Shown here: one piece after another, positions 25,375 through 32,801 of the stretch
How positions within the stretch are numbered: position 1 is the first letter of the stretch
Layout of the letters: each line of letters begins with the position of its first letter
Origin: a virus
Strand: one strand, 5' to 3'
Length of the DNA stretch: 39,348 bases
Virus record (IMG/VR): IMGVR_UViG_3300005471_000033
Coordinates: 1 to 39,348 of that record
Made by a program: the position numbers and the translations under genes
Notes under the pieces: generated by a model
What the model saw: the letters and a program-made list of their open reading frames with translations, nothing else
Told to the model about the DNA's origin: nothing
Database searches by the model: none

Positions 25375-26006
25375 CTATTCCTTCGCCTTCGGCTTGATGC
25401 CAAACGTTTTCAAGGTTCGCATATCGGACTCACTCAAGCCTTGAGGTTTTAGTTGGGGCGCCAGCCATTCCAATAGTGGATCGATACCCGAAGGCCCGCT
25501 TCTGCTGGAGTAGGCCACGAGTGCTGCTGGCCGGTGGAAGCGATGGTAGTCATCGAATGGGTGAGCCCGATAGAACGCAATCCAGAACTCGAATTCATCG
25601 GGGGTCATCACCCCCTTCCACTCATCGATCGTGCGACCGCCGAGTGCGAGGGCTAGGATTCCCCAGAACCATTCTTCGCCCCTGGCTCCGACGCTTTTCC
25701 CCGGCCGCTGGGCCGGTTGACTTGCATGGCGCCTTGGTACATGGAATCGACAACGCCCTGATCGAGCGTGCCGACCTGTTCGATTGTCAGGGATTGTTTG
25801 CCATCGGCTTCGCAGAGGCTACAGGCCACCAAGCGAATGATGGCCTGCGCCATCAGGCCAGGATCGCCAGAAGCGACCCCCGCCTGAAAGCGGGTCCACT
25901 CGAAGGAGCCCACGCGCTTGAACGGGAACTTGGCGACGGTCCCATCCGCCAGGTTGACATCACATTCCTGGATGGCCGCTTGGGCCATCAGTTTCGTGAT
26001 ATCCAT
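25375..26006 (-). CDS. Tail assembly chaperone G-T fusion made by -1 frameshift
   Basis: Translation starts at ATG 26006. At the heptamer G-GGA-AAA (25701-25695 on the minus strand) ribosomes can slip back one base. The -1 frame then stays open from AGC (25695) to TAG at 25377-25375. It adds about 106 residues beginning SVGARGEEWFWGILALALGG after 104 shared residues, giving about 210 in all. The T part has TIDEWKG and EFEFWIAFYRAHPFDD. This is the lambda G/G-T arrangement, positioned between the major tail gene and the tape measure. The T part has its own internal ATGs but no ribosome site, which supports frameshifting. Confidence 0.8.
25653..26006 (-). CDS. Tail assembly chaperone G-type (zero-frame product)
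   Basis: A 117-residue protein starting MDITKLMAQAAIQECDVNLA, overlapping the major tail gene by one base (TGATG). It has an N-terminal beta part with VAKFPFKRVGSFEW, then helices (FQAGVASGDPGLMAQAIIRL) and a basic, Gly/Ser-rich tail that contains the slip site. The zero-frame end is short and unstructured, as in lambda gpG. It would coat the tape measure during tail assembly. Confidence 0.75.
   Translation of the reverse strand: MDITKLMAQAAIQECDVNLADGTVAKFPFKRVGSFEWTRFQAGVASGDPGLMAQAIIRLVACSLCEADGKQSLTIEQVGTLDQGVVDSMYQGAMQVNRPSGRGKASEPGAKNGSGES
25695..25701 (-). promoter_or_regulatory. Slippery heptamer for -1 frameshifting
   Basis: On the minus strand GGGAAAA sits in phase as G-GGA-AAA within codons CGG GGA AAA GCG of the G-type gene. 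It matches the X-XXY-YYZ rule and is close to lambda's G-GGA-AAG. The first -1 codon is AGC. A GC-rich stretch precedes it; no obvious strong downstream pseudoknot is seen by eye. Confidence 0.75.
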
Positions 26007-26494
26007 CAGGCGGCCGGATGGAACGTCGTGGTGCCGCTCGGTTGGATCGTCAGCGTCCCGCGGACGACCTCATTGGTTGCTGCGTCGATGGTGAGGTTCG
26101 AGACGTAGCCATCGAACGTCAGGCAGGTGCGTGCGTTCGGCGGGTCGAGCTCGAAGTTGCTTGTGACGGTCGGGGCGGTCGAGGAATCGCTCAGGCCCAC
26201 CAGCCAACTGACAACGGAGTTGCTGTCGCGCATGGTGAATAGCGATTCGTGGGAACCGTCGCCCTTGTACAGGATGAACGGAACGGAGACTTCGCTCGCA
26301 TCGGCGAAGCCGCCGACGTAGGTGCGATACGCGCCGGTCTCATCGAGACAGGTCGTGTCGATCTTGTCCTTAGAGCCACCGCCGATGCCGGTGATCCCGG
26401 TCGGGCATGTCAGCTTCACAGCGGCATGGGTGACGGGATCAACGAAATAGAGATGGGTGCCCTTGGTCTCAAAGGCGTTGTCAACGACGGCCAT
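26006..26494 (-). CDS. Major tail tube protein
   Basis: A 162-residue protein; ATG 26494 has AAGGAG six bases upstream, one of the strongest ribosome sites here. The fold is beta-rich: TKGTHLYFVDP, then a GGGSKDKIDTTCLDE segment, SEVSVPFILYKGD, and a final LTFDGYVSNLTIDAATNEVV with RGTLTIQPSG. This is the pattern of siphophage tail-tube subunits. Its place between the completion genes and the chaperone pair agrees. An intrinsic terminator lies just upstream. High copy is expected. Confidence 0.8.
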   Translation of the reverse strand: MAVVDNAFETKGTHLYFVDPVTHAAVKLTCPTGITGIGGGSKDKIDTTCLDETGAYRTYVGGFADASEVSVPFILYKGDGSHESLFTMRDSNSVVSWLVGLSDSSTAPTVTSNFELDPPNARTCLTFDGYVSNLTIDAATNEVVRGTLTIQPSGTTTFHPAA

Positions 26495-26506
26495 GATGGC
26501 TCCTTG

Positions 26507-26531
26507 AAAAAGAAAACCCGCCATCGGCGGG
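26507..26531 (-). terminator. Intrinsic terminator upstream of the major tail gene
   Basis: On the minus strand CCCGCC-GAT-GGCGGG (26531-26517) is followed directly by TTTTCTTTTT (26516-26507). Arms pair perfectly and the U-tract is strong, so this is a standard factor-independent terminator. It ends just before the major tail protein ribosome site, inside the late operon. It would either thin transcription or require antitermination by the Q-like protein. Confidence 0.8.
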
Positions 26532-26560: not shown

Positions 26561-26923
26561 CTATCTGCCGAAGAAATCGAATTGAAGCCCGATTCGGTAG
26601 AGCTTCGTTTCGGGTTCCTGCTCATCGAGCAGGGTCGATGTCATGTGCGCAATGGGCTCGATGGCATCGCGCACCGCCGTAGCGAGCGTATCGATGTCAT
26701 CGGAATTCTGGTGCCAGCAATCGATCTGTACCGTCTGACGGTCGGTCGGTGGCAGATCACTGAGATTGTTTTCGGGGACGCTGGAGACGAGCGTCCATGT
26801 GATGTAAGGCAGCGTCAGCCCTTGCGGCGCCGCGCCATGCCGATAGATTCGGGCCGGACTCGTGCCGACAATGGCCCGAACCGAGGCAGAAGCCTTCAAT
26901 GCCGGGAAGACGGGAGGCAACAT
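26561..26923 (-). CDS. DUF3168 tail completion protein
   Basis: A 120-residue protein starting MLPPVFPALKASASVRAIVG. The P.LPYITWTLVSSVPE..LS...PTDRQTVQIDCW segment and the C-terminal LYRIGLQFDFFGR are the standard DUF3168 signature. Family members complete or terminate the tail tube. It lies between the gp10-like gene and the major tail gene in the usual order, overlapping its neighbour by one base. Confidence 0.82.
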   Translation of the reverse strand: MLPPVFPALKASASVRAIVGTSPARIYRHGAAPQGLTLPYITWTLVSSVPENNLSDLPPTDRQTVQIDCWHQNSDDIDTLATAVRDAIEPIAHMTSTLLDEQEPETKLYRIGLQFDFFGR

Positions 26924-27423
26924 CAGGCGCCCCCTTGCTTCATCAGTTTGGTGGCGATCCTGTCGATCGCTGCCACGAGCTCAGTCTCGACCGTCCGAAT
27001 GGCTTCTGCTGCCTTCGATTGGAAGGCCGGACGAATCCACGGCTCGGCCGGTTGTTTGCTCGATCCGTACTCGAGTAGCTGGGCAGTCTTGAGCGTCGTC
27101 ACCGCTTTGCCACTCACACGCGCATAGGTCTTTCGGCGAACCCGGACAAGATAGCGCTCGCCATTCCCGTCGGTCGGCGGCTTGCCTCGGCTGACAATGA
27201 CGTTTTTCGCCAGTAGGCCCGTCGATAGGCTTTCTTCCTGGGTCTGGTTGGAAGTCACGACCCGGAGATTGGCAATCTCGGCCTTGCGGATGACAACAGC
27301 GCCCTTCCTGAGCGCCGTCTTGACCGGACCACCGCGCTTGCTCACGACCTCGGCCGGTAATGAGCGAAGCATCTCGTAGACGCCATCCAGGCCCGTGAGT
27401 TGAATGGTGGTGGTGTCAGCCAT
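26923..27423 (-). CDS. HK97 gp10-like head-tail joining protein
   Basis: A 166-residue protein. Residues 5-65 (IQLTGLDGVYEMLRSLPAEV, then VKTALRKGAVVIRKAE) match the HK97-gp10 family, and the C-terminal half has the TAQLLEYGSSKQPAEPWIRP motif, which is highly typical. These proteins join or gate the head-tail interface. In this phage the gene is separated from the other head-completion genes by the six-gene sugar cassette. ATG 27423 overlaps the cassette's last stop, so the cassette is translationally joined. Confidence 0.85.
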   Translation of the reverse strand: MADTTTIQLTGLDGVYEMLRSLPAEVVSKRGGPVKTALRKGAVVIRKAEIANLRVVTSNQTQEESLSTGLLAKNVIVSRGKPPTDGNGERYLVRVRRKTYARVSGKAVTTLKTAQLLEYGSSKQPAEPWIRPAFQSKAAEAIRTVETELVAAIDRIATKLMKQGGA

Positions 27424-28064
27424 CAGATATACGCCTGCCGCAGGAATTCATGCTCGGCGTGCCATGCCTCTGCGCCGTTGGCATTCCTATAATGCCAAAA
27501 GCCAGGACTGCCCGCCGTCCAATGGAGAAGCTTTGCGCCTTCGGGACTGCCGTTCTCATCCACGAGGACATTCCACTCGGCTGGGAGTTCGCCGATTCGG
27601 TCATCATCGAAGCCCGCAAACTGCTGCTGGCCCCTTCGACTCCATGTGACACTTTGCCATTCAGGCGCGGCACAGTTGATGAGTTGCAGGCTGGACCAGT
27701 TCTTGCGCGGATAGTCCACGTTCGGGCACTGCATCGCCGTGCCGATGTACTTGATCGGGTTGCGCGTCTTGTAGCTGTTCTTCACGACCTGAACCGCGAA
27801 CTTCTCATCCCGCAGTGCCCACAGTTCGGCCATGTCGCCGATGCAGAGCATGTCGCAGGCATCCGCGAAGATCGCCCAACCTTCGAACTTGCATAGCTCG
27901 GCGACCTTGAAGCGCGCATAGACGAATGTGTTCGAGCCATCGGCTTGGTCGTCGCTTACTGGCGTGAAAGCCACCGGAACCGAACAAGTCCGAATCACTG
28001 ACGAGCAGAAGACATGGTAGCCAAAGGCTTCGCGCTCGTCGTATCCTGCAAAAACGCGAATCAC
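27423..28064 (-). CDS. GT8-like glycosyltransferase
   Basis: A 213-residue protein starting at GTG 28064 (GTGA overlap). An N-terminal FAGYDEREAFGYHVFCSSVI segment resembles GT8/GT-A enzymes. Residues about 60-80 (FEGWAIFADACDMLCIGDMA) carry an acidic D-x-x-D in the place of the metal-binding DxD, and a conserved K..YIGTAMQCPN and LLHWTAGSPGFWHY follow, like HYTDG.P motifs of GT8. A UDP-sugar donor and Mn2+ are inferred from family. It is the last gene of the cassette and the one with the clearest GT-A features. Confidence 0.7.
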   Translation of the reverse strand: MIRVFAGYDEREAFGYHVFCSSVIRTCSVPVAFTPVSDDQADGSNTFVYARFKVAELCKFEGWAIFADACDMLCIGDMAELWALRDEKFAVQVVKNSYKTRNPIKYIGTAMQCPNVDYPRKNWSSLQLINCAAPEWQSVTWSRRGQQQFAGFDDDRIGELPAEWNVLVDENGSPEGAKLLHWTAGSPGFWHYRNANGAEAWHAEHEFLRQAYI

Positions 28065-28621
28065 TTGATTGCCTCCAGCCGCATATCCCGATGGTCCCGT
28101 CCTGCCGGATGAAACTGTGTTTGACGCTCGGCCACTTTCTTGAATCCGTGATCTCTCAGCAAGGCGGAGAGTTCATCCGGCGACCAGCCCCAGGGGTGGC
28201 ACATGAATTTGTCCCCCGTCCTCGGATCGCCATAGATTCCCCACCGCGCGAGTTGGTCCGGGTCTTTGCCCCCGCGCTTGCGACCTGATAGGTAGTTTTC
28301 GCAGCACTTCACGAGGTTCGGCAGTTCGAGGATCAAGGTTCCGCGTTGCCGAAGCAGCCTGGACCATTCACGAAGAACCGCGTCGCATTCCCAGCGGTAG
28401 AAGTGCTCGAAGACATGGATTGCCATCAATGTATTGGCGCATCCGTCTGGCAGCGGAATCTCCTTGGCATCGCATAGCAACTCAGGTGCTCGAGGCGCGT
28501 TCGGATTGCGCTGGATGTCGCAGTTGAACCAGCCGTCCATCACCCGGGCGCCGCACCCCACGTTGAGTTTGAGACCATCAACAGGAATTTCCACGCTTGT
28601 GCCGCCTCTGAGTTTTTCCAT
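28061..28621 (-). CDS. SAM-dependent methyltransferase (class I)
   Basis: A 186-residue protein. Motif I is LNVGCG near residue 19-24, followed by the acidic loop CDI near 34; motif II/post-I regions include LPDGCANTLMAIHVFEHFYRW and motif III LLRQRGTLILELPNL. This is the Methyltransf_11 pattern seen in sugar- or lipid-modifying enzymes. It overlaps the upstream transferase gene by 82 bases in another frame; a GTG further in is possible. In a glycosylation cassette it would cap or methylate a transferred sugar, but the substrate is not visible. Confidence 0.78.
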   Translation of the reverse strand: MEKLRGGTSVEIPVDGLKLNVGCGARVMDGWFNCDIQRNPNAPRAPELLCDAKEIPLPDGCANTLMAIHVFEHFYRWECDAVLREWSRLLRQRGTLILELPNLVKCCENYLSGRKRGGKDPDQLARWGIYGDPRTGDKFMCHPWGWSPDELSALLRDHGFKKVAERQTQFHPAGRDHRDMRLEAIK

Positions 28622-29307
28622 TGCCACCAGGCCAATCGTTGCAAGAAAGCCAATCGTTCTTCGTGCGAGGGATTCCTAGGAGCCGCGAGATCTGAGCCAT
28701 AGAGCTCTGCTGCCGCCCCATCCTCGCAGACCACCGGAACCCCCGCGATACAGGCATCGATCGCCACGTTCGAGTGCCGGCAGACCACCAGCGCTGCATT
28801 CTTCAGGAGCCGTTCGATCGGCTGATCGCTGACCCGGCATCCGGTCCATTCCTCGGGGCGCTTGGCCTTGTAATAGATGCGCGACTCAGGATAGGTCCGC
28901 TTGATCCGCCAGAGCGTTTTCTTCTCCCACTCCTGGCCCCTGAACCCGAGCATCGAGCGTGACTTCGTGCCCATGCCGGCGAGCAGGATGTGCCCGGTCG
29001 GCTTGTAGTCATTCCGCAGCGTGATCCCGCTGGACCTGAACCGATCGGCTGGCGCCTGCGGCATGTTCCTTGGATGCTCATATCCCACGACCACGCGCAT
29101 CGCCTCCTGCCGGTTCCAGTAGCCCAAGTCCCAGCAGATGCGGGTTCCCTGGTGCGCCTTCCACCACTTCAATCGCTCGGGATGCCCGACGCCATAGAGC
29201 ATCAGGATTTCACTGTTGCCCTCGTACCGTTCCGTGATCTTGACCGGGATCGGTGCCGCCTCGGCCATCGCTCGCAGCATCCTCAAGCCACGTTGGCTCC
29301 CGGCCAT
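28540..29307 (-). CDS. Glycosyltransferase-like protein (capsule-type), paralogue of 30143-30835
   Basis: A 255-residue protein starting MAGSQRGLRMLRAMAEAAPI at ATG 29307 (TGATG). Its C-terminal half has GHILLAGMGTKSRSMLGF, then VVCRHSNVAIDACIAGVPVV and CEDG, the G-S/N-x-A-x-x-A...G-PV pattern of GT-B capsule/LPS transferases. The end (LQRLAWWQWKNSEAAQAW) closely matches the end of the protein from 30143-30835 (LRNLAWAQWELHEIESGEAF), showing the two are related. A nucleotide-sugar donor is inferred. Fold call moderate; exact sugar unknown. Confidence 0.6.
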   Translation of the reverse strand: MAGSQRGLRMLRAMAEAAPIPVKITERYEGNSEILMLYGVGHPERLKWWKAHQGTRICWDLGYWNRQEAMRVVVGYEHPRNMPQAPADRFRSSGITLRNDYKPTGHILLAGMGTKSRSMLGFRGQEWEKKTLWRIKRTYPESRIYYKAKRPEEWTGCRVSDQPIERLLKNAALVVCRHSNVAIDACIAGVPVVCEDGAAAELYGSDLAAPRNPSHEERLAFLQRLAWWQWKNSEAAQAWKFLLMVSNSTWGAAPG

Positions 29308-30146
29308 CAGGATTTCAGCTTGCACAGCACCTCGCGGTACCGCTCTGCGACCATGTTCCACGTGAAACATGCGCCAAGGAATCGCTCACGGATCGCCAAC
29401 CGTGCATCTCGCGTCTCGAGCCAGTCCAGCGCAGTGGCGAGTTCCCGAGGATCGTCGGCCCAATGCTCGGCCCCTGTCTGCGTTTCCAGATACCCGGCTT
29501 CCCTCGAGCCGATGAACGGTGTTCCGCTTCCATGTGCGTTCGCCAACTTGACATTCGATTTCCAGTGCCGCTGCGGGTAGCCATTCCAGCCCTCTCCGCG
29601 CAGCGCGAGCACGACATCGACATCCGCCAATTGCGGAGGATTGACCATGAAGGTCAGCCCGCGCCTGGAGCATTCCTTGCCAATCGCCTCGGCCCATCCC
29701 CGGATATAGATCGGGGAGCCTTCATAGCCGATCATCTCCAGCTGTTCGCGGATTGGGTTGACCGCCAGATTCGGCCGATGGTGGTGATAGATCACTTCCC
29801 CGAACCCGAGGTCGTCGCGCATCCGCTCGTTCGGCAGGATCACTATTGTCGGCGCCAGCCGGCGAACTTCACCCCTCAGCCAGTCGATTGATTCCTGTCT
29901 CGACCACGCCGAGCACTTCGGCTGCGGGAAGGCATCCACCACATCCCAGGCCCACGGTCGGCCGCTTTTCCTGATTGTTTCCAGCAGTGGATCGGGAATG
30001 CGCTTGACCGCCACGATCGCATGCACTGCCTTGCAATCCTGCAGGCCAGCCATCGGCACCGCGGTTGCGCCTAGCGCCTTGGAAGCTTGTAGACCACGAA
30101 TCTGCCAGCTGCCTGACGTTCCTTTCCCAGTGAATAGCCACTTCAC
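29307..30146 (-). CDS. GT4-like glycosyltransferase
   Basis: A 279-residue protein starting at GTG 30146 (GTGA). It begins KWLFTGKGTSGSWQIRGLQA, a GT-B style loop. The C-terminal half has LADVDVVLALRGEGWNG, KLANAHGSGTPFIGSREAGY and GAEHWADDPRELATALDWLE, resembling the donor-binding part of GT4 transferases (the N/K...A.G.P.I.....G..E pattern, then D..ELA.AL..L). Length is shorter than most GT4 enzymes (350-400), so the N-terminal domain is reduced. It sits in the middle of the cassette and is coupled at both ends. Confidence 0.65.
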   Translation of the reverse strand: MKWLFTGKGTSGSWQIRGLQASKALGATAVPMAGLQDCKAVHAIVAVKRIPDPLLETIRKSGRPWAWDVVDAFPQPKCSAWSRQESIDWLRGEVRRLAPTIVILPNERMRDDLGFGEVIYHHHRPNLAVNPIREQLEMIGYEGSPIYIRGWAEAIGKECSRRGLTFMVNPPQLADVDVVLALRGEGWNGYPQRHWKSNVKLANAHGSGTPFIGSREAGYLETQTGAEHWADDPRELATALDWLETRDARLAIRERFLGACFTWNMVAERYREVLCKLKS

Positions 30147-30835
30147 AGAAACCCCTCGAATGCCTCGCCACTCTCGATCTCGTGGAGCTCCCACTGAGCC
30201 CAGGCCAGATTCCTCAACATGGACAGCCGGCCTGTGTCCGTGTTGTCCTGCTCACCAATCCAATCCGGCATCTCCGAAATCACATGGAGACCCATCATCA
30301 GAGCCTGAATTGCGGCGCCGCTGCCCCAGGTCACGACCCGGCCACAGCGCTCCAGATCATCGGCCAGCGGCTTCGCCTGATTCCTGCCAGGATGCGGCCG
30401 GATGCGCCCGCCATGCCGTTGATAGGCTGACTTGGCCCAATTGGCCGGCATTGCCGTTGGAGGACTCCCGATCCCACGCTGCGGCAAGATGACCGTTTCG
30501 CCTTCAGTCCTCCAGGGTGCGAGCTCGATGCCGAGCGCATCCCACCGTTCAGACCCGCCAGCCAGGAACATCCCCGCCGTGTTGTGTCGATCCTTCGCGA
30601 GGCTGATCCACTTCCGCTCGAGAAACCCATTGCCCCAGGCCGCATTCTCGGCAACCAGCACCAGCCCGTAATCCCTGGCGAGCCGATCTGCGGCACCTAT
30701 CCGGTTCCATGTCACCAGCGCATCGGCCGGCTGCAATCCTGGGATGACGACGAATCCATGCCGCCTCAGTCCTCGCTCGAATGCCTGGATCCGCTCAGTC
30801 AGCGAGTACCGCAGATTCAGCGAGACAGTCCTCAA
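30143..30835 (-). CDS. Glycosyltransferase-like protein (capsule-type)
   Basis: A 230-residue protein. The only reasonable start is TTG 30835, overlapping the previous gene by 41 bases, in front of LNLRYSLTERIQAF. The features are a Rossmann-like FVVIPGLQPADALVTWNRIG, LVLVAENAAWGNG, then CGRVVTWGSGAAIQALMMGLHVISE, the GS.AA..AL..G.PV pattern of KpsC/KpsS-type capsule transferases, and LRNLAWAQWELHEI at the end. It is related to the 28540-29307 protein, so an old duplication shaped the cassette. Substrate unknown. Confidence 0.55.
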   Translation of the reverse strand: MRTVSLNLRYSLTERIQAFERGLRRHGFVVIPGLQPADALVTWNRIGAADRLARDYGLVLVAENAAWGNGFLERKWISLAKDRHNTAGMFLAGGSERWDALGIELAPWRTEGETVILPQRGIGSPPTAMPANWAKSAYQRHGGRIRPHPGRNQAKPLADDLERCGRVVTWGSGAAIQALMMGLHVISEMPDWIGEQDNTDTGRLSMLRNLAWAQWELHEIESGEAFEGFL

Positions 30836-31337
30836 GTGAACCCCGCGAGTAGCAGGTTAGCGAACTCGATGGCGAACAATTGATGATCTCGACGCCTTTG
30901 GGCCGGTAGTGCCCGAACTGCCGCTTGAATGCTTCCATCCGGGCTGCGTTTGTGGATTTGAGCGGCGTCGGATGCTTGCCGAAGAAATGATGCCCAGGCT
31001 GATTCAGGTCGATCCCGCATAGCAGAATCCGCTTCGCTCCCAGATGAACCGCCACCATCACTCCGAGCAACCCTGAATTCGTGTGAGTCTCGGCCGGGAA
31101 ACTCTCGACCTTCTCGAGCGGCCTGAAACTCTGCATCGCCCCGAACTTGCGTCCCTCGAATTCCAGCGCCTCGGGATGTGCCTTCCACCAAGCGCCATCT
31201 GTCGAGACCAGCGCGTTGGCCCACGGCGCCAGCTTCCAGGCATCGCTGACCGCCACCGCCTTGCAGCGCCCCTTGACCTGATCCGCCACCGCCTGCGACA
31301 TGGATGGTCCCGTCGCGAGCACCGCCCATGTTGTCAT
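30795..31337 (-). CDS. DUF115/GT42-like Rossmann protein, first gene of the sugar cassette
   Basis: A 180-residue protein. The N-terminus is WAVLATGPSMSQAVAD, a G.GPS nucleotide-binding loop. Residues about 85-112 are THTNSGLLGVMVAVHLGAKR then ILLCGIDLNQ, with a later GVEIINCSPSSSLTCY. The GPS loop and the NSG...A..LG...I.L.GIDL block are shared by DUF115/Maf flagellar glycosylation proteins and by GT42 sialyltransferases. A nucleotide-linked sugar is therefore a plausible donor, but the family alone does not name the reaction. ATG 31337 overlaps the head-closure stop (ATGA). Confidence 0.6.
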   Translation of the reverse strand: MTTWAVLATGPSMSQAVADQVKGRCKAVAVSDAWKLAPWANALVSTDGAWWKAHPEALEFEGRKFGAMQSFRPLEKVESFPAETHTNSGLLGVMVAVHLGAKRILLCGIDLNQPGHHFFGKHPTPLKSTNAARMEAFKRQFGHYRPKGVEIINCSPSSSLTCYSRGSLEDCLAESAVLAD

Positions 31338-31717
31338 TGGCCCTGGCTAACCCCGGTCGATACCGGGATCGTGATGTAGTCCAGACCGCTTTCGACATCC
31401 GGCAGAAAGCCTGCCGGGTTGTAGACGACATCGGCGCGACCGGTTCTCGTATGCACCAGGCGCATCGCCGGGTCCAGATCATCCCGGAATCGGATCGTGA
31501 TCCGTGCCGTGACCTTCGATTGCGTGGCCTGTGCTGCCAGGAACTCCCGAGCGCTCAGAGGTTCGATTGCTGCCCACACTGTCGCGACCTCGGTCCATTC
31601 CTGCAGAACGGTTCCAGTCTCATCGTCCTGTGCCGGTTCGCCGTTCGAGTCAATCAGGCTTTCCAGCTGCTCGATGCGAACCCGGTGCCGCAGTTTCCCA
31701 GCCTCGACGCTAGCCAT
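31334..31717 (-). CDS. Head closure/head-tail adaptor protein
   Basis: A 127-residue protein. Residues 5-20 (EAGKLRHRVRIEQLES) and 45-60 (TVWAAIEPLSAREFLAAQ) and the ITIRFRDDLDPAMRLVHT segment match the Phage_H_T_join family (SPP1 gp16-like). It would plug the portal-connector complex and dock the tail. The ATG is three bases... close after the connector stop, at 31717. An upstream in-frame ATG lies inside the connector gene and is rejected. Confidence 0.8.
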   Translation of the reverse strand: MASVEAGKLRHRVRIEQLESLIDSNGEPAQDDETGTVLQEWTEVATVWAAIEPLSAREFLAAQATQSKVTARITIRFRDDLDPAMRLVHTRTGRADVVYNPAGFLPDVESGLDYITIPVSTGVSQGQ

Positions 31718-31719
31718 GT

Positions 31720-32112
31720 TTAGACGACGGTGGACTTGCGAACCGCGACCAGCAGACTCGTGGCACCAGCACCCAGCACGTAGCCATGCCCCCATTCGGA
31801 AGGAACCACTGCGGCTCCAGAGCCATCCCGGAACCGATACTGCTGGGCCAGTTCAATCAAGCAGGCCGCGCGCACCATCGGCTTGACCGTCCTGTCTCCA
31901 TCCGAGTCCTCGAACGGGATCGCGTCACCATTGCTGTCAAGAAGCGGGTTTCCGTTTTCATCAAGGATCGGCTCGAATGCCCGCCAGTCCTCCTTGAGCC
32001 AGGACATGACGGCTTGACTGATCGCCGGAATCCAGACCGCGAGCCATGCATCATCCGCATCGCTGTCCGTCCGGATGTGGTTGCGCGCATCCTCAATGGA
32101 AACGAGGTCCAT
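31720..32112 (-). CDS. Head-tail connector protein (gp6/gp15-like)
   Basis: A 130-residue protein starting MDLVSIEDARNHIRTDSDAD. This start and the DDAWLAVWIPAISQAVMSWL helix are the standard Phage_connect_1 pattern. Unusually an acidic insert (about 52-75, DENGNPLLDSNGDAIPFEDS) lies in the middle; related proteins often carry a hydrophilic loop there. The helix MVRAACLIELAQQYRFRDG follows. It would form the ring under the portal. Two bases separate it from the gene upstream. Confidence 0.82.
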   Translation of the reverse strand: MDLVSIEDARNHIRTDSDADDAWLAVWIPAISQAVMSWLKEDWRAFEPILDENGNPLLDSNGDAIPFEDSDGDRTVKPMVRAACLIELAQQYRFRDGSGAAVVPSEWGHGYVLGAGATSLLVAVRKSTVV

Positions 32113-32114
32113 GC

Positions 32115-32801
32115 TCAGGCCTGAAGCTTGATCGGGCCAGGAGGCGCCGCATTGATCGTCTTGACGGTCGTCTCACCATCCCGACCCTTACGCGCGGCAA
32201 TGATCCAGTCGGCGCCCTTCGTATCCGGCTTCGATTGCGTGTCCTTGGTCGCGATCCAGAGCGACCCATCGTGAACCCATGCTTCCGCAGCCTTGGCCTT
32301 CGTACCTTCGCGCCAGTAGCCTGACGGACGAATGCCGCCTGCGGGATAGCGAATCTCCTTGACCCGCGTCCCGACCGTCGCCTTCACGGAAACCTCGTGC
32401 GATTCAGCGATGTATTCCAGATCGAACGAATCGAAGCTGACGCCATCGTTGCCGTCCTTGCCAACCACTTTCCCGAGGTTCTTGACCTCGCCGTTCGTCA
32501 GCGTGATCTGCAGCGCGCCGTCCCGGTCGATCATCGCGCCAGCCAATCCCAGGCCATCGTCACCCTTGACCGGGCCGGGAATCTGCGCGAGGACTTCCTT
32601 GATGATCAGGATCGGATCGGCATCAACGCCATCTTTGGGGGCGGGCAGCGCTTCCACGGCGGCACTGACGGAACGTTCGATCTGAGCGGGTATGTCCTTG
32701 GTGAGTTGCGCCTCGATTTCCGCAAGCTTCTTCTGCAGGGGAGCGATTGCATCTCGGATCGCGGCGCCCATGGCTTCGCCGAACTTCTCAGGGTCAAACA
32801 T
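32115..32801 (-). CDS. Structural protein with collagen-like and carbohydrate-module-like parts
   Basis: A 228-residue protein starting MFDPEKFGEAMGAAIRDAIA; ATG 32801 has GGAGG six bases upstream and overlaps the portal gene by eight bases. The N-terminal 55 residues form a coiled-coil-like helix. Short GxxG pieces follow (IPGPVKGDDGLGLAG, GKDGNDG). The C-terminal part reads SGYWREGTKAKAAEAWVHDG and SLWIATKDTQSKP, ending RKGRDG, similar to the small CBM5/12-like modules on phage head proteins. It could decorate the capsid or bind sugars; location next to the portal and the sugar cassette is suggestive only. Confidence 0.6.
   Translation of the reverse strand: MFDPEKFGEAMGAAIRDAIAPLQKKLAEIEAQLTKDIPAQIERSVSAAVEALPAPKDGVDADPILIIKEVLAQIPGPVKGDDGLGLAGAMIDRDGALQITLTNGEVKNLGKVVGKDGNDGVSFDSFDLEYIAESHEVSVKATVGTRVKEIRYPAGGIRPSGYWREGTKAKAAEAWVHDGSLWIATKDTQSKPDTKGADWIIAARKGRDGETTVKTINAAPPGPIKLQA

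Follow-up and report, generated by a model that had tools for sequence, protein, structure and literature searches.

Six overlapping genes between head closure and neck

The window analysed here, the whole 39,348-nucleotide stretch of IMG/VR virus record IMGVR_UViG_3300005471_000033, carries a block of six overlapping minus-strand genes (g1-g6, 31337-27423) flanked by the gene for the head-closure protein Hc1 and a gp10-like neck gene. Read along the minus strand, the genes are portal, x32 (the gene at 32115..32801), Ad1, Hc1, g1-g6, gp10-like, tail terminator, tail tube and tape measure. An initial annotation, made from the sequence alone, had read the block as a sugar- and methyl-transfer cassette that builds a methyl-capped glycan on a virion protein, and all six open reading frames (ORFs) were found at the place and in the order it had claimed, with every one kept in close relatives. 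We think it somewhat probable that the block serves virion glycosylation, as an optional island in the late operon that is expressed with the head, neck and tail genes. The features of the locus are as follows:

31334..31795, minus strand: head closure Hc1, true start probably closer to 31717 (Pfam Phage_HCP 3.7e-24; phrog_25 1.8e-27)
30795..31337, minus strand: g1, GT42/DUF115-type sialyltransferase-like protein, 180 amino acids (phrog_4603 4.3e-34; CstII profile match)
30143..30835, minus strand: g2, predicted GT-B enzyme of the CMP-Kdo-transferase type, 230 amino acids (AlphaFold2 model and Foldseek)
29307..30146, minus strand: g3, predicted GT4-like GT-B glycosyltransferase, 279 amino acids from GTG 30146 (AlphaFold2 model and Foldseek; weak Pfam Glyco_trans_4_4/1_2)
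28540..29370, minus strand: g4, g2 paralogue with a CMP-Kdo-transferase-type fold by homology (hhalign); start uncertain, 29370 or 29307
28061..28627, minus strand: g5, S-adenosylmethionine-dependent methyltransferase, start uncertain (Pfam Methyltransf_11 4.8e-7)
27423..28064, minus strand: g6, GT8-like glycosyltransferase (phrog_28018 1.3e-19; Pfam Glyco_transf_8 in some homologues)
26923..27423, minus strand: gp10-like/Neck1 tail completion protein (phrog_5 2e-10)
26561..26923, minus strand: tail terminator (own hidden Markov model, HMM; alignment to the tail terminator annotated in D3/PAJU2)
26006..26524, minus strand: major tail tube protein (own HMM; alignment to the major tail protein annotated in D3/PAJU2)
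31720..32112, minus strand: head-tail adaptor Ad1 (phrog_40 2.2e-7)
32115..32801, minus strand: x32, collagen-like/fibre-like protein downstream of portal, candidate acceptor (phrog_1289 2e-15; some homologues match Pfam Collagen, 5e-23 in locus L034)

The block had been described as coupled to structural genes by ATGA overlaps at both ends, which is correct for Hc1 and g1, but g6 and the gp10-like gene meet as TGATG; GTGA overlaps form the g2/g3 and g5/g6 junctions. We place the start of g3 at GTG 30146, not at 30194, because homologues begin there and the codon forms a GTGA with the stop of g2. Neither GC content nor GC content at third codon positions (GC3) differs between the block and the structural genes, and between 26900 and 32200 the count of sigma-70-like promoter and of terminator patterns was 0, where shuffled sequences gave expectations of 1.3 and 3.4. 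The block is presumably co-transcribed with the structural genes.

Enzyme classes of the six proteins

The transferase and methyltransferase classes first assigned were borne out and sharpened by profiles, structure models and homology, and the composition of the block as five sugar-transfer enzymes and one methyl-transfer enzyme is well supported. By profile match and motifs of the cytidine monophosphate (CMP) site, g1 is assigned to the GT42/DUF115 class. The family phrog_4603 carries the label alpha-2,3-sialyltransferase, and a 13-sequence g1 profile matches structures of the sialyltransferase CstII (GT42) at 1.1e-4 over ~135 profile positions, although g1 is the shorter protein. Its GPS and SG motifs align with CstII, the CMP-site motifs GPS and NSG are present, and 11 of 54 g1 homologues match Pfam MptE-like/DUF115. 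Residues G10, D47, G108 and H117 are invariant in 51/51 aligned homologues, and H122 is kept in 47 of the 51.

Two further observations concern g1. At L036:6902-8794, L037:2116-4032 and L038:3487-5379, which represent at least two distinct phages, a g1 homologue runs in frame into collagen-like, PKD and laminin-G-like domains, as though the transferase were carried on a fibre. The g1 homologue of phage PAJU2 (ORF010; loci L022/L100) is labelled 'structural protein' without 'putative', a plain label otherwise given only to the capsid, the major tail protein and ORF023. This suggests that the protein was seen experimentally in virions, but we could not trace the label to an experiment. The g1 of phage Eowyn is also labelled 'structural', which may be copied annotation; the Eowyn paper makes no mention of mass spectrometry.

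The AlphaFold2 model of g2 (predicted local distance difference test score, pLDDT, 96; 54-sequence alignment) predicts a GT-B fold of the type of the solved transferases of 3-deoxy-D-manno-octulosonic acid (Kdo) WbbB (GT99) and KrkA, its best Foldseek matches in the Protein Data Bank (PDB; E 1e-5 to 1e-4; top figures E 1.3e-5, probability 1.00, TM-score TMq 0.52). WbbB is a beta-Kdo transferase solved with CMP-Kdo, and KrkA a retaining Kdo transferase; g2 differs from them in its ~15% identity, its shorter length and a TMq of ~0.5. E63, R120, H148-P149 and S172 of g2 are invariant in its homologues. The pairing of g2 and g4 as related capsule-type transferases was confirmed, the two being homologous (hhalign 99.6%, E 2e-24), which by homology gives g4 a putative CMP-Kdo-transferase-type fold; three g2 homologues match Pfam Capsule_synth weakly (best E 0.028). 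The g3 model (pLDDT 94.5) resembles BshA (E 1.4e-8, TMq 0.70), SenB and GtfC, with E 1e-8 to 1e-7 and TMq ~0.6-0.7 overall. Both g2 and g3 thus have predicted folds of nucleotide-sugar transferases, where the lack of a nucleotide-sugar site would have spoken against the initial annotation. The fold search alone gave these matches, and PDB sequence searches with g2, g3 and g4 profiles returned nothing relevant.

The match of g5 to Methyltransf_11 lies above the Pfam cut-off, and g5 also matches the NCBIfam oligosaccharide methyltransferase MftM weakly (8.9e-8, under the cut-off). For g6 the match to Pfam Glyco_transf_8 (18.7 bits) falls under the cut-off of 24.3, and 4 of 48 homologues match the family (best 4.9e-9). 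The acidic metal motif noted in g6 is present in all 48 aligned members as DxxD or DxD, but its form is usually DxxD (e.g. DACD), with the classical DxD (e.g. DCD) in divergent relatives; D68, D71 and H181 are invariant. Many polar residues are likewise invariant across the g1, g2, g3, g4 and g6 families, which suggests that these are working enzymes.

A recurrent and optional module

A g3 profile search of IMG/VR returned 78 loci. Block genes were then called in all retrieved loci by HMMs built from the window proteins. Among the loci examined, L026 is a prophage of Variovorax sp. JS1663. Counts exclude duplicates and frameshifted contigs, among them L074, L078, L083, L085, L087 and L097, in which block and structural genes are split into many frames, probably by sequencing errors. 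g3 together with at least two other block genes occurs in 74 distinct loci, 28 with the exact order g1-g2-g3-g4-g5-g6 and 46 more with a partial, contig-cut or permuted block. Structural genes were recognised at the flanks in 72/74; by PHROGs, one of the two exceptions, the Mu-like L067, has head genes and a Neck1 gene adjoining the block, and in the other, L065, genes for terminase and head-tail adaptor follow downstream. The flanks are Hc1 and gp10 in 25 loci and x32 and Hc1 in 8; the remaining blocks lie between x32, capsid, tail terminator, tube or tape measure genes, many at a contig edge. As the position varies (Hc1|gp10, x32|Hc1, after the tail terminator, before the tape measure), it is the structural context that is conserved and not one ancestral site, across siphovirus-, Mu- and podovirus-like genomes. 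In Caulobacter jumbo phages, g1-g2-g4-g6 and a methyltransferase lie after tail genes and before the endolysin. Such a sugar pathway had been called uncommon, a description that does not fit 74 loci with shorter relatives in D3, PAJU2, P1 and the Caulobacter jumbo phages. One further g1 homologue, with an annotated glycosyl transferase after head genes, lies in Tetraselmis viridis virus S20 (L177), a tailed phage listed under an algal host; its true host is probably a bacterium.

The window itself had no DNA match in the phage collection, no g2 relatives were found in plasmids, and a g2 profile scan of genome contigs was empty. An origin as a host-derived operon was rejected: of 369 genomes sampled from the class, the sole one with g3 was the prophage carrier that served as the centre, and GC3 was like that of phage genes. 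An anti-phage defence system was also discarded, there being no match to a PADLOC model.

Control loci were picked by portal similarity alone, and 49 of them had both Hc1 and gp10 flanks. The gap between these flanks holds the six-gene type in 8, g1 as the only one of the six families in 26, g1 and g5 in 1, and nothing in 14. The 26 g1-only loci hold other genes too, such as a hypothetical protein paired with a methyltransferase in the PAJU2 manner. The 14 empty sites identify the block as an optional module, and the mixed contents of the gap mark the site as a hot spot for optional modification genes. The x32 protein, which had been named as a candidate acceptor, is not singled out by co-occurrence: it is present in 49/49 control loci, including 14/14 without the cassette, and is therefore not a specific partner of the block, so we rejected it as a cassette-specific acceptor.

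Variation inside the block is for the most part independent of that in the phage backbone. Distance correlations with structural genes, which are descriptive only as pairs are not independent, are ~0.0-0.3 for g3, g4 and g5 and ~0.25-0.6 for g1, g2 and g6, compared with ~0.2-0.85 among the structural genes themselves; closeness to the flanks may explain the pattern. Each block gene is ~88-97% identical to that of close relatives except g5, which is either 97% or 54% identical inside a ~90% identical block.

Additional genes occur within some blocks. A methyltransferase-like family of 34, absent from the window, lies mostly between g2 and g3 (e.g. L010, L036, L054, L068), and the one representative scanned had no Pfam match. 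A 2-oxoglutarate (2OG)-Fe(II) oxygenase gene, possibly a glycan or prolyl hydroxylase, stands between g4 and g5 at L042:10048-10773, L048:3810-4397, L049:9928-10521 (Pfam 2OG-FeII_Oxy_3 7.9e-19) and L137:13769-14464. Free-standing genes that resemble HNH homing endonucleases, as judged by eye, sit at block junctions or just before the block in L004, L005, L006, L007, L028, L056, L061, L063 and L132.

Target of the glycan and comparison with known phages

As in a virion-glycosylation system, the glycosyltransferases of the block are encoded by the phage and lie among structural genes, with no internal promoter or terminator pattern. Because the block recurs nearly always among genes for parts of the particle, a particle protein is probably the target of the methyl-capped sugar. 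The virion is moderately supported as the target by the presumed late transcription, the structural setting in different types of phage, the absence of the block from some related loci, the fusion of g1 to a fibre and the label given in PAJU2. For target, donor identity, order of steps and benefit alike, we infer the following scheme. A virion protein would receive a short glycan from soluble enzymes in the cytoplasm as the particle is assembled: g3 (GT4-like) and g6 (GT8-like) would add neutral or amino sugars from uridine diphosphate (UDP) or similar donors, g1 (GT42-like) and g2/g4 (WbbB/KrkA-like) would add CMP-activated acid sugars, most likely from host CMP-Kdo, and g5 would cap the glycan by methylation. 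Nearly every Gram-negative host can supply CMP-Kdo, the bacterial hosts named among the g1 matches listed are Gram-negative, and the families of g1 and g2/g4 use CMP-acid sugars; host CMP-Kdo or a related acid sugar is therefore probably the donor. Possible benefits are shielding of the particle, altered adsorption to debris and masking of a receptor-like surface.

Several findings weigh against virion glycosylation. No glycan, glycopeptide or acceptor is known for the block, and the Ser/Thr content of structural proteins, compared by cassette class, gave no clear signal and singled out no acceptor. With modest TM-scores between g2 and WbbB (TMq ~0.52), Kdo is assigned as donor at the level of the family. 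Some g1 homologues of jumbo phages (Eowyn) lie away from recognised structural genes, and that of Citrobacter phage phiNP sits between lysis and terminase genes. Most directly, GT42, Kdo transferases, GT4 and GT8 are also typical of lipopolysaccharide (LPS) core synthesis, so a target on the host surface fits chemically.

The main rival is accordingly late modification of the host envelope, at the LPS core or another surface glycan, which would block superinfection or stop progeny from binding debris. GT42, Kdo-transferase, GT4 and GT8 folds are common in LPS and lipooligosaccharide (LOS) synthesis, LPS would be an apt acceptor for CMP-Kdo-type enzymes, the isoelectric points of g3 and g4 (9.3 and 9.7) are basic, as in many LPS transferases, and the bacterial hosts among the g1 matches listed are Gram-negative. 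However, the block has no promoter of its own that we could find and overlaps within structural genes, unlike typical lysogenic-conversion genes, and in siphovirus-, Mu- and podovirus-like genomes alike it is again found at structural sites; the fusion of g1 to a fibre and its structural label in PAJU2 also argue for the particle, and we judge envelope modification unlikely. More doubtful still is that g1, perhaps with the whole block, is mainly a virion component, a transferase-fold protein in the neck or head that the other enzymes decorate, on itself or on its fibre. Such a role would agree with the L036-L038 fusions and the PAJU2 label, but the invariance of G10, D47, G108 and H117 suggests catalysis. 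Phages do glycosylate DNA, and glycosyltransferases and a methyltransferase are present here, but the late structural context, the lack of a recognised base-modification partner in the block and the resemblance of all six enzymes to glycan-building families make hypermodification of phage DNA most improbable.

Virion glycosylation thus remains our preferred reading. We advance only tentatively a more specific form of it, in which the block is a swappable module of Gram-negative phages. This module would divert an LPS precursor of the host, CMP-Kdo or some related ulosonic acid, for the O-glycosylation of neck or tail proteins. It would apparently have no relation to the system of mycobacteriophages, and its first enzyme, g1, could at times be borne on the particle itself. 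If the preferred reading is true, virion glycosylation would not be peculiar to mycobacteriophages but would be a modular trait of Gram-negative phages, P1 and D3 included. A group of genes listed as 'putative morphogenetic' would then have an explanation, the encounters of phage particles with antibodies and surfaces would be affected, and enzymes for the chemistry of CMP-acid sugars on proteins would come to hand as a set.

Among known phages, PAJU2 has a g1 homologue, a hypothetical protein and a methyltransferase (ORF010-012) exactly between Hc1 and gp10, the same site as that of the block. The late-operon trio of D3 and PAJU2 (D3 orf7, orf12, orf13) shares the g1 homologue and the methyltransferase with the block, but comprises three genes only, and by the HMMs used its middle gene is not homologous to g2-g4; in D3 the trio is slightly rearranged relative to PAJU2, with g1 upstream of Ad1. 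We rejected PAJU2 ORF011 (D3 orf12) as a GT9 protein, as it has the GLGD motif alone and a Pfam scan of the L111 homologue was empty at E 0.01. In P1, pmgO and pmgP of the pmgO-pmgP-ppp-pmgQ series are both g1 homologues, with a late promoter annotated upstream at pmgL, but no g2-g6 homologues were found; for PmgQ, annotated as a glycosyltransferase, homology to g6 was not supported (hhalign probability 0.2%). We found no established role for the late genes pmgO/pmgP of P1 and orf7/orf12/orf13 of D3. P1 pmgO and pmgP are non-essential for lytic growth (PMC10695390); ppp and pmgQ are each non-essential too.

The principle of virion glycosylation is known from mycobacteriophages. Phages of cluster O have an O-methyltransferase gene followed downstream by three glycosyltransferase genes in tandem, which are reported to modify the proteins of capsid and tail tube (PMC11600133; PMC12363180), and virion glycosylation is known for Corndog (cluster O), Che8 and Myrna (PMC11600133; PMC12363180, citing Freeman et al. 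2023). The suggestion of an undescribed virion glycosylation system must therefore be given up in that form, whereas the proposal of virion glycosylation itself has been strengthened by the structural context in 72/74 loci, at several positions and in several phage types. No description of the six-gene block was found in the titles, abstracts and passages of the literature consulted, and tblastn of g1, g2, g3, g4 and g6 against 50,697 phage records gave no mycobacteriophage among the matches listed. The mycobacteriophage system and the block have phage-encoded glycosyltransferases and a methyltransferase in common; the block, a putative system, differs in its CMP-Kdo- and GT42-type families and in the Gram-negative bacterial hosts among the matches listed, and is apparently a new, unrelated Gram-negative variant of the known glycosylation of phage virions.

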